A DNA stretch of 64,000 nucleotides from Paramecium sonneborni (taxonomy: Eukaryota > Ciliophora > Oligohymenophorea > Peniculida > Parameciidae): the NCBI GenBank assembly GCA_905182985.1, contig CAJJDN010000128.1, positions 116,413-180,412 on the forward strand. Direction: 5' to 3'. Made by a program: the position numbers and the translations under genes. The notes under the pieces were generated by a model. That model saw nothing but the letters and a program-made list of their open reading frames with translations, was not told the origin of the DNA and searched no databases. Shown here one piece after another: positions 16,777 through 31,800 of this stretch (position 1 is the stretch's first letter; each line of letters starts with the position of its first letter).

Positions 16777-17797
16777 AACATTTCATTACCTTTTATTCCA
16801 CAAATTAATAAATTCAATTCCCATTCATTAGTATGACTTATTTAAATTCATCCTCCAAATAAACTCTGTTAGTAAAATTTAATTTCATGATATTAAATTA
16901 TTTTTATAATTTTAGATGTTCAAGCACTTTTTAGAGTCTGTAATAATTTCAATAGTTTAATAATTTTCTTATTCTTTCTTCCAATACTTTTTAATACACT
17001 ATTGATAACTATTTAAATTACACACATTGATTTTTTTAATTATTATATTTATTTCAGATTTTAAAAAGTGTATAGCTAGTTATCTATTTGTTATATAACA
17101 ATAAATAATAAGGTCCTTTTGTAAAATTCAATAGTTTAATCTTCAATGAAGATTGTTTTAGAACATCAACTAATTTATTTTTTTAGTTTAGATATCCACT
17201 TGTATATCAATTTATCTATGATAAAATGAATTTCCCTTTTAGTAATACTATAGAATTGATTTTCCAACATAAAAAAAGCATCTTTTATTATAATATTTTG
17301 TTATTTGCATAGATAAAAGATCTTATTTTTAGATGAAGGAGAATTTTCTGAAGATTTCAACTATGAATCAACTTGAATTCATTTTATTGCTTTAAATAGA
17401 ATTAAAATATTTTTAAAATTAAAAGAGAAGATAGTATAATAATAAAAACAGAAAAATAAAATTAATTTTATTTATTAAAAAATACAGGATATATAATGAA
17501 ATATAAAATTAGATTATTATGTTTTTGATTGTTTAATATTGTTTTAAAAAATGCAAATAAAATCATATGATTAATATTGACAAAAGGTTTAAACATTAAA
17601 TAGAATACCAAGAAAATCTATGAAAAAGAAAAAGAAATTAAAGTATTAATAAATAAGTAAAATATACAATTCATCAAGGTGATGGAAAGAATTGAAAGAT
17701 TTAACTATGTGGAGTAAATGAATTAGTAATAGAATGGAAAACAAGTTTAGATTGATAAATATTATATATATATAAATAATATTAAGATAATATTTTA
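16777..17797. other. AT-rich non-coding stretch upstream of the MORN gene
   Basis: About 1 kb (repeated as 17945-18947 through the gap duplication) without a convincing gene on either strand; TGA codons break every frame into short pieces. The length is unusual for the compact Paramecium macronuclear genome. It contains the site where the two contig copies differ by a 26-bp insertion. Confidence 0.5.
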
Positions 17798-19016
17798 ATG
17801 GGAACTTGTAAAAGTTGCGAAACTCCTTAAGAAGATAAGAATTTACATGCATTGCCTAGTGATTCANNNNNNNNNNNNNNNNNNNNNNNNNNNNNNNNNN
17901 NNNNNNNNNNNNNNNNNNNNNNNNNNNNNNNNNNNNNNNNNNNNCCATTCATTAGTATGACTTATTTAAATTCATCCTCCAAATAAACTCTGTTAGTAAA
18001 ATTTAATTTCATGATATTAAATTATTTTTATAATTTTAGATGTTCAAGCACTTTTTAGAGTCTGTAATAATTTCAATAGTTTAATAATTTTCTTATTCTT
18101 TCTTCCAATACTTTTTAATACACTATTGATAACTATTTAAATTACACACATTGATTTTTTTAATTATTATATTTATTTCAGATTTTAAAAAGTGTATAGC
18201 TAGTTATCTATTTGTTATATAACAATAAATAATAAGGTCCTTTTGTAAAATTCAATAGTTTAATCTTCAATGAAGATTGTTTTAGAACATCAACTAATTT
18301 ATTTTTTTAGTTTAGATATCCACTTGTATATCAATTTATCTATGATAAAATGAATTTCCCTTTTAGTAATACTATAGAATTGATTTTCCAACATAAAAAA
18401 AGCATCTTTTATTATAATATTTTGTTATTTGCATAGATAAAAGATCTTATTTTTAGATGAAGGAGAATTTTCTGAAGATTTCAACTATGAATCAACTTGA
18501 ATTCATTTTATTGCTTTAAATAGAATTAAAATATTTTTAAAATTAAAAGAGAAGATAGTATAATAATAAAAACAGAAAAATAAAATTAATTTTATTTATT
18601 AAAAAATACAGGATATATAATGAAATATAAAATTAGATTATTATGTTTTTGATTGTTTAATATTGTTTTAAAAAATGCAAATAAAATCATATGATTAATA
18701 TAGGAGAAAAGGGATTTTTTAATATATTGACAAAAGGTTTAAACATTAAATAGAATACCAAGAAAATCTATGAAAAAGAAAAAGAAATTAAAGTATTAAT
18801 AAATAAGTAAAATATACAATTCATCAAGGTGATGGAAAGAATTGAAAGATTTAACTATGTGGAGTAAATGAATTAGTAATAGAATGGAAAACAAGTTTAG
18901 ATTGATAAATATTATATATATATAAATAATATTAAGATAATATTTTAATGGGAACTTGTAAAAGTTGCGAAACTCCTTAAGAAGATAAGAATTTACATGC
19001 ATTGCCTAGTGATTCA
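16821..19016. repeat. Gap-flanking duplication (16821-17866 = 17945-19016, with one indel)
   Basis: Both sides of a 78-N gap (17867-17944) carry the same sequence. The offset is 1124 up to 17574/18698 and 1150 afterwards, because the right copy has 26 extra bases. The left copy includes the first 23 codons of the MORN gene (17798-17866). Best explained as overlapping contig ends. Confidence 0.85.
18699..18724. mobile_element. Probable retained internal eliminated sequence (IES), 26 bp
   Basis: The right contig copy has 26 bp absent from the left copy. The insert begins TATAGGAG and ends TTAATA, and is followed by TA (18725-18726). The left copy has a single TA at the junction (17575-17576), as expected after precise excision between two TA dinucleotides. 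The start matches the known Paramecium IES end consensus TAYAGYNR at all but one position; the other end, read inward, is TATATTAA. Length 26 bp is the classical minimum and lies in the most abundant IES size class. It is in non-coding DNA about 220 bp upstream of the MORN gene. Origin from Tc1/mariner-like elements is established for IESs in general, not shown here. Confidence 0.8.
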
Positions 19017-19868
19017 AGAAGGCCAAAAAGTGTTGAGATTATAGCTCCATTAACAAGAGAAACAGATGTTACTAGAGATAAAAGAGGAGCATTTACTTAT
19101 GAAAATGGAGCAACATATACTGGAGAATGGTACAACATTATTTAATATTTTGTTTTGGATTGGTATATGTCGTGATGGTTTTGGTACTTAAGTTTGGCCA
19201 GATGGGGCTTAGTATGAAGGATAATGGAAAGATGATAAAGCTTAGGGAAAAGGTATCTTTAAACATGCTGATGGTGATATATGTAATATTTTAAAACTAA
19301 TATTAAGATGATGGAGAATGGGAAAATGATAAAGCAAATGGTTATGGTACCTATATTCATGCTGATGGTTCTAAATATGAAGGTTTATGGAAGGATGATA
19401 AATAACATGGTTATGGAACTGAAACTTGGGTAGATGGAAGTAAATATGAGGGAAACTACAAATATGGAATGAAAAATGGATCTGGAACCTATTATTGGCC
19501 AGATGGAAAAATTTATTAGGGTTTGTGGTTATAAAATAAAATGACAGGATATGGTGTATGTCATTGGAAAGATGGAAGATGTTATATAGGTGAATGGTTA
19601 GATAATAATATGCATGGTCATGGTAAATACACTACTCCAGATGGCAAATAATATGAAGGAGATTATTATTTTGATAAAAAACATGGATTTGGAACTTTCA
19701 CATGGCCTGATGGTAAAAAGTAATCTATAATTTATATTATAAAGGTATTCTGGAAATTGGAAAAAGGGTAAATAACATGGCAAAGGCAAAATTATAGTAG
19801 ATAAAATTGAAAAGCATGGAATGTGGGAGGATGGTAAACGTATTAGATGGATTGAGGATGAAGATTGA
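18948..19868 (+). CDS. MORN-repeat protein, 280 aa
   Basis: ATG 18948 to TGA 19866-19868, three introns (19130-19157, 19283-19307, 19720-19744), 281 codons. After a Cys-containing N terminus ([13 protein letters not shown]) about ten MORN repeats fill the protein, for example YEGQWKDDKAQGKG and [19 protein letters not shown] proteins act as membrane- or cortex-associated scaffolds and are common in ciliary and cortical structures. The first intron keeps frame and repeat spacing only if it ends in TG instead of AG (last bases TTTTG at 19157), which is odd and may be a sequence error. The N-terminal MGTCKSC could be a lipidation site (inference). A truncated copy of exon 1 at 17798-17866 comes from the gap duplication. 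Confidence 0.9.
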
Positions 19869-28878: not shown

Positions 28879-31800
28879 ATTAACTTTTAAATAATCGTAA
28901 GGTTGTATTATTAATTCATCAGGTAATATATCAAAATTAGTAGGATTGCTTATTCTACAATATAAATTAATCTTTTATTCTGATGGATTCTCCAATAGAA
29001 CTACTTATTGTTCTACTTTTCCTAAAGAAGCCCTTAAAATATTTAATTTAATGATAGGATATTCTTCACAAGTCAATATAAATTCATACCATACTTCCCC
29101 TAATTATCTACTACACTTCCTCTCCATCTACCTACTTTTAATGGTGCAAATGTCAATTCATATAAACCTTCTTTATTAGCACCAATTGCAAATTAATCTT
29201 TTCCTAACAATCCATCACCATTTATTATAACTTCATAAATAGCTGTCTCTGAAAGTGGATTTGATAATGTTAATTATATTACTGTTGCTTATCTAATCAA
29301 ACATTATAAATCTAATGTCTGTAATGATTTTGGTGATTCTGTATTCATAAATACAGTATACCTTAGATATCTTCCATTATCCTCTGTAAATGTTATTGAA
29401 CCTGTATATTATCCAGATAATATTGGCTATACTATTAATTAATAAATCCCTTTTTTCCCTGCCCCTATTCTTATCTAATTGGACCTGTTGCATAAATCGA
29501 ATCGGTCTCTACTTTATAAATTATCTCCTTATCTGTCAAGTTTCTTAATTCAATATCTCTTTTTAATGCTTTCCTTGCATTACAATTTAATATTATATGT
29601 TCCTCTGCTACTGATTCTTCTCCTATCTCTACCAAATCATATTCAAATACATCATTTGTTAATAGATTATTCAATATTAATTTAGCTTCAATCTATGCTA
29701 TCCATAAAGGATGAAATGTTATTGGAAATTATCCTGTTGATTTCTTTTTTATTATAAATTCCTTATTTGGACATTAAAATAAATTATCTCCACTCTAATT
29801 CAATTAAATATTTATCGTCCAATCTTTATCTGAACCATTAACTATTTGAGTCTCCTATATCACCTATTATCTAGCTGGTATTCTAAATTCTAAAGTTGCT
29901 AATACTTAAGCAGTTAATTTATATCTTCTAATACNNNNNNNNNNNNNNNNNNNNNNNNNNNNNNNNNNNNNNNNNNNNNNNNNNNNNNNNNNNNNNNNNN
30001 NNNNNNNNNNNNNNNNNNNNNNNNNNNNNNNNNNNNNNNNNNNNNNNNNNNNNNNNNNNNNNNNNNNNNNNNNNNNNNNNNNNNNNNNNNNNNNNNNNNN
30101 NNNNNNNNNNNNNNNNNNNNNNNNNNNNNNNNNNNNNNNNNNNNNNNNNNNNNNNNNNNNNNNNNNNNNNNNNNNNNNNNNNNNNNNNNNNNNNNNNNNN
30201 NNNNNNNNNNNNNNNNNNNNNNNNNNNNNNNNNNNNNNNNNNNNNNNNNNNNNNNNNNNNNNNNNNNNNNNNNNNNNNNNNNNNNNNNNNNNNNNNNNNN
30301 NNNNNNNNNNNNNNNNNNNNNNNNNNNNNNNNNNNNNNNNNNNNNNNNNNNNNNNNNNNNNNNNNNNNNNNNNNNNNNNNNNNNNNNNNNNNNNNNNNNN
30401 NNNNNNNNNNNNNNNNNNNNNNNNNNNNNNNNNNNNNNNNNNNNNNNNNNNNNNNNNNNNNNNNNNNNNNNNNNNNNNNNNNNNNNNNNNNNNNNNNNNN
30501 NNNNNNNNNNNNNNNNNNNNNNNNNNNNNNNNNNNNNNNNNNNNNNNNNNNNNNNNNNNNNNNNNNNNNNNNNNNNNNNNNNNNNNNNNNNNNNNNNNNN
30601 NNNNNNNNNNNNNNNNNNNNNNNNNNNNNNNNNNNNNNNNNNNNNNNNNNNNNNNNNNNNNNNNNNNNNNNNNNNNNNNNNNNNNNNNNNNNNNNNNNNN
30701 NNNNNNNNNNNNNNNNNNNNNNNNNNNNNNNNNNNNNNNNNNNNNNNNNNNNNNNNNNNNNNNNNNNNNNNNNNNNNNNNNNNNNNNNNNNNNNNNNNNN
30801 NNNNNNNNNNNNNNNNNNNNNNNNNNNNNNNNNNNNNNNNNNNNNNNNNNNNNNNNNNNNNNNNNNNNNNNCTACACTTCCTCTCCATCTACCTACTTTT
30901 AATGGTGCAAATGTCAATTCATATAAACCTTCTTTATTAGCACCAATTGCAAATTAATCTTTTCCTAACAATCCATCACCATTTATTATAACTTCATAAA
31001 TAGCTGTCTCTGAAAGTGGATTTGATAATGTTAATTATATTACTGTTGCTTATCTAATCAAACATTATAAATCTAATGTCTGTAATGATTTTGGTGATTC
31101 TGTATTCATAAATACAGTATACCTTAGATATCTTCCATTATCCTCTGTAAATGTTATTGAACCTGTATATTATCCAGATAATATTGGCTATACTATTAAT
31201 TAATAAATCCCTTTTTTCCCTGCCCCTATTCTTATCTAATTGGACCTGTTGCATAAATCGAATCGGTCTCTACTTTATAAATTATCTCCTTATCTGTCAA
31301 GTTTCTTAATTCAATATCTCTTTTTAATGCTTTCCTTGCATTACAATTTAATATTATATGTTCCTCTGCTACTGATTCTTCTCCTATCTCTACCAAATCA
31401 TATTCAAATACATCATTTGTTAATAGATTATTCAATATTAATTTAGCTTCAATCTATGCTATCCATAAAGGATGAAATGTTATTGGAAATTATCCTGTTG
31501 ATTTCTTTTTTATTATAAATTCCTTATTTGGACATTAAAATAAATTATCTCCACTCTAATTCAATTAAATATTTATCGTCCAATCTTTATCTGAACCATT
31601 AACTATTTGAGTCTCCTATATCACCTATTATCTAGCTGGTATTCTAAATTCTAAAGTTGCTAATACTTAAGCAGTTAATTTATATCTTCTAATACACCCA
31701 ATTATTAATCTTTAATTTTATTAACTCCTCAGCTATATCATATTTATTCTTTAAAGTTAATATTACATTAAAATCTTTTGTTGCATTCTTAAATGCATAA

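Follow-up and report, generated by a model that had tools for sequence, protein, structure and literature searches.

A 26-bp TA-bounded insert distinguishing two overlapping contig ends of a Paramecium assembly is probably a leaky short IES

Results

Two overlapping contig ends differ by a 26-bp insert

The window, that is, the whole stretch of 64,000 nucleotides analysed here, covers positions 116413-180412 of contig C128 in an assembly of 91.5 Mb and 289 contigs. It contains seven runs of N, each lying between overlapping copies of one sequence, with the left copy stopping at the gap and the right copy starting there. At one of these joins the two copies differ by 26 bp. The features of the locus, in window coordinates, are as follows.

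16821-17866, + strand: copy A, the right end of the left contig, insert absent
17867-17944: scaffold gap of 78 N separating the two overlapping contig ends
17945-19016, + strand: copy B, the left end of the right contig, insert present
18699-18724: 26-bp insert, candidate IES, with the second TA at 18725-18726
18948-19868, + strand: MORN-repeat gene downstream of the insert, its ends judged by eye from the reading frames and a paralogue
1100, 27690, 29935-30871, 34883, 42813 and 55523: the other N-runs of the window with overlapping flanks

Deleting 18699-18724 from copy B yields copy A letter for letter over its full length, which bears out a preliminary description of this DNA according to which the copies are identical except for the 26 bp. 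The "17.87 kb gap" of that description is a slip: the gap is 78 N long, and 17.87 kb is its position, not its length. In copy A the insertion site lies within ATTAATATTGAC, near 17575. Because of a shared ATAT, the insert can be placed in five equivalent ways, and only 18699-18724 begins with TA and has TA next. Placed there, it is bordered by TA on both sides and copy A retains a single TA, as had been described and as at the borders of an IES. The insert ends read TATAGGAG and, on the opposite strand, TATATTAA. Each matches four of the five informative inner positions of the IES end consensus TAYAGYNR, in inverted orientation, so that the likeness to this consensus previously pointed out for the insert start holds for both ends. 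One end is TATAG; the right end, TATAT, has no G at position 5. The length of 26 bp, already recognised as the lower limit for IESs, is the same minimum that is given in passages of PMC3464196. Together with its second TA, the insert occurs at one place in the whole 91.5 Mb assembly when up to two mismatches are allowed, and is thus single-copy as far as the assembly goes; the forms with and without the insert are each present once.

The genome is that of a Paramecium with piggyBac-family transposase genes

The genome is that of a Paramecium: the Paramecium surface-antigen domain PF01508 gave 150 scored matches from 1,269 first-look candidates and was found in none of 14 control genomes. The piggyBac transposase family PF13843 gave nine matches above the cut-off on seven contigs, one of them spanning the full profile, again with none in the 14 controls. 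Many PF01508 matches contain TAA and TAG, and the PF13843 matches have internal TAA and TAG and no TGA; this stop-codon use fits the ciliate code (code 6), in which the reading frames near the insert were taken. From the family and the genus, we infer that the PF13843 genes correspond to the PiggyMac genes that serve IES excision.

Unmerged contig ends are common and mostly identical

We scanned C128:1-340000, which is this one contig up to its last 3,055 bases, for duplicated ends, scoring an overlap at an N-run when exact 25-mers were shared within 400 bases of the gap. Overlapping flanks were found at 17 of the 20 N-runs, with sizes from 134 to 1,304 bp and 17,930 bp in all, counted in the left copies; at the other three, no overlap was found by the exact 25-mer criterion in the 400 bases around the gap. 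Fifteen of the 17 overlaps are identical and nevertheless unmerged. The remaining two differ by three substitutions and by the 26-bp insert, respectively, the insert being the sole length difference across the 17,930 bp of duplicate contig ends. The substitutions, at the overlap at C128:33947, are C/T, C/T and G/A in 1,095 bp, two of them no more than three bases from the overlap ends.

The preliminary description had proposed that the insertion itself may have kept the assembler from merging the two ends. The 15 identical overlaps lead us to reject this: identical ends were left unmerged too, and the merge failure is therefore a habit of the scaffolding. The recipe by which the assemblies of PMC8354472 were made (Newbler contigs, SSPACE scaffolds and GapCloser) would fit the scaffold type seen here.

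The same joins bear on whether the difference is an artefact, in that the assembler or gap filling added the 26 bp, or that the duplication and its difference are a real tandem repeat. The abundance of unmerged ends (17 of the 20 N-runs) and the one other overlap with substitutions lend this some weight. Against it, no other source for the insert exists in the assembly at up to two mismatches, and the insert borders precisely on TA. A real tandem repeat is further opposed by the fact that both copies end exactly at the gap edges, as in 15 of the 16 other overlapping joins. We consider an error of this kind very improbable.

The unmerged overlaps duplicate whole genes or gene pieces in the assembly. 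Equal-score match pairs 1.1 to 1.4 kb apart (for example C43:306015/307215, C54:90015/91157 and C116:157653/159027) suggest that other contigs hold unmerged overlaps too. A scan of C128:1-340000 for telomere-type repeats, taken as two units of CCCCAA, of CCCAAA or of their complements, found none. In an assembly of this kind, the overlaps left unmerged can be mined for TA-indels without recourse to reads.

Random segments seldom have such ends

We drew 200,000 random 26-bp segments of C128 and dropped those near N, which left 195,418. A TA-bounded placement was possible in 6.6% of these; 0.026% were TA-bounded with at least eight of ten consensus matches, and 0.016% were TA-bounded with at least four of five matches at both ends, as the insert is. 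This end-consensus test was prompted by the preliminary description, which had named TAYAGYNR, and the background is itself depleted in such segments, so that the chance rate appears somewhat lower than it would otherwise. The scanned contig has 5,672 TA-to-TA segments of exactly this length, counting the insert; 17 of them (0.30%) had at least four of five matches at both ends.

These figures bear on a second alternative, in which most copies carry the 26 bp as ordinary macronuclear DNA, and copy A derives from copies in which the excisase removed them by mistake. Such cryptic TA-indels, in which the major macronuclear form has the segment, are distinguished from residual TA-indels, in which the segment belongs to the minor form and is missing from the major one. 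Low-frequency TA-indels are common: passages of PMC3464196 count 1,090 of them in P. tetraurelia against 739 residual ones, and suggest that the 1,090 reflect excision of macronuclear DNA. According to parts of PMC4132734, cryptic TA-indels peak at about 26-30 nt and show a weak preference for TATNR ends, and macronuclear segments of 26-30 nt bounded by TATAG are excised more often than those with other end types. Insert and contig have the same G+C content (23%), which would also suit ordinary macronuclear DNA. On the other side, the ends of the insert are nearer to the IES consensus than those of nearly all random segments. Taken together, these points leave mistaken excision of macronuclear DNA unlikely, though it is the alternative to which we give most credence.

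Segments of the insert's length with good ends are depleted genome-wide

In the whole assembly, TATAG...CTATA segments number 385 at 26-30 bp, compared with 1,071 at 20-24 bp and 942 at 34-38 bp, a shortage of roughly 2.6-fold. Controls with the reversed pattern are flat (1,880 at 26-30 bp, 1,974 at 20-24 bp and 1,894 at 34-38 bp). The shortage is a footprint of excision with a length preference of 26-30 bp, good substrates of the insert's length having been depleted. For the macronuclear genome of P. tetraurelia, PMC4132734 gives the number of TATAG-bounded segments in the first IES length peak as about one fifth of that expected, and the shortage reported there recurs in the present assembly.

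The effect is slight for the pair of ends that the insert itself has, TATAG and TATAT. This pair occurs 3,120 + 3,414 = 6,534 times at 26-30 bp and 3,370 + 3,726 = 7,096 times at 20-24 bp, a ratio of 0.92 set against the 20-24 bp class alone; the corresponding controls number 5,119 + 4,643 = 9,762 and 5,077 + 4,588 = 9,665 (ratio 1.01). All segment counts include the duplicated contig ends and are somewhat inflated in every class. We read the slight shortage as that of a weak substrate, in agreement with excision that is incomplete. Alternatively, the pair may hardly be recognised and the insert may barely be a substrate at all, which would count against an IES and in favour of cryptic excision.

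The insert lies upstream of a MORN-repeat gene

Downstream of the insert, and separated from it by 223 bp, is the likely ATG (18948) of a gene with a MORN domain (PF02493, 1e-40, six stretches). A Pfam scan of six ORFs near the site gave two with a match, both to MORN and both downstream of the insert. One of these ORFs, open in code 6 (18457-19311), crosses the insert; long chance frames are common in a code with a single stop. The best other match to the gene is a paralogue at C87:157439-158359, 93% identical. We considered this paralogue as a test of the insert and set it aside as uninformative, since its upstream DNA gave no alignment at the insertion site. Between two matching stretches, the paralogous locus has about 4.4 kb (C87:152978-157392) where C128 has about 0.7 kb.

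The reading frame of the MORN gene shifts at 19134-19175 of the window, where the C87 paralogue is nearly identical. No GT...AG stretch of 15-69 bases that restores the frame was found at 19134-19175. In a more distant paralogue on C36, removing a 26-base GT...AG stretch restores the frame. A count of GTA...TAG spacings over the raw contig, with genes and non-genes pooled, gave no clear intron peak and is uninformative.

The position of the insert brings to mind a developmental switch. An IES in the mtA promoter has a role in mating type. By analogy, the insert might be a facultative IES upstream of the MORN gene, its retention or removal serving as a heritable switch, and it could in principle influence how the gene is regulated. 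PMC4232520 includes the mtA promoter IES as a maternally controlled one. In a limited literature search, we found no paper combining somatic IES, retention, promoter and intergenic. We regard a switch of this kind at the present locus as highly improbable.

Discussion

The insert is probably a residual TA-indel: a short intergenic IES with imperfect excision, kept in some macronuclear copies and removed from others. The domesticated piggyBac excisase would cut at both TAs during macronuclear development and take out the 26 bp, leaving one TA. With the preferred TATAG at one end and TATAT, which has no G at position 5, at the other, excision would be expected to be less than complete. Both forms would then persist in the polyploid macronucleus, and each of the two overlapping contig ends would have captured a different one. 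We infer the presence of the insert in the germline, the action of PiggyMac at this site, the weak end as the cause of the leakiness and the share of copies that carry each form.

The "retained IES" of the preliminary description stands in part. An IES is the best reading, given the genus, the TA borders, the length of 26 bp, the ends, the occurrence at one place in the assembly and the genome-wide footprint; an assembly alone, however, is not sufficient to establish one, and passages of PMC3464196 caution that TA-indels are not to be counted as IESs without further experimental support. Removal of macronuclear DNA, or a cut at another boundary, would leave the same picture in the assembly. 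How one chooses among a residual TA-indel, a cryptic one and a shortened IES depends on prior expectation and on how good the ends are. The last of these supposes that the true IES extends beyond the 26 bp and that copy B holds a remnant left after a cut at an alternative inner boundary. According to parts of PMC3464196, 689 of the 739 residual TA-indels in P. tetraurelia are located at an IES, which favours an IES here too; as a precedent for a remnant, 134 of these 689 (19.4%) are shorter than the IES. Yet 26 bp with two near-consensus ends already make a standard IES, and there is no sign of missing sequence; we think a remnant of this sort improbable, more so than cryptic excision. PMC4132734, in the portion that bears on this, names the same kinds of excision error as PMC3464196.

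If the insert is a leaky IES, its discovery in one join calls for no special explanation. Taking an IES density of 0.57-1.05 per kb, the range for aurelia species in Table 1 of PMC8354472, and a mean IES retention of 0.8%, the value for P. tetraurelia as quoted in passages of the same paper, about 10-19 IES sites would have been compared across the duplicate contig ends. On the rough assumption that each contig end is a random draw of one copy, 0.16-0.30 discordant sites are expected, with a probability of 15-26% for at least one. A single discordant site is therefore unremarkable. Incomplete IES excision has already been documented genome-wide in Paramecium, with roughly a few hundred incompletely excised IESs in standard cultures (parts of PMC8467633), and this single site in itself matters little.

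Three known classes of sequence invite comparison. With the residual TA-indels of P. tetraurelia, as treated in passages of PMC3464196, the insert shares TA-bounded presence or absence with one TA left, the IES length class and the end consensus; those TA-indels were found from reads against an assembly and checked on germline IESs, whereas the present one is known from two contig ends. With cryptic or low-frequency TA-indels, as described in part in PMC4132734, it shares the size peak and the TA borders. Cryptic TA-indels result from mistaken excision of macronuclear DNA and have a weaker end preference; the insert is known here from one copy of each form. The third class is that of the short IESs of the first size peak, which in P. 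tetraurelia has its maximum at 26-28 bp and holds 35% of IESs (passages of PMC3464196): the insert has the 26 bp, the TA borders, the TAYAGYNR-like ends and the one place in the assembly in common with them, and differs in that its second end has T for G at position 5 and that its germline limitation is putative.
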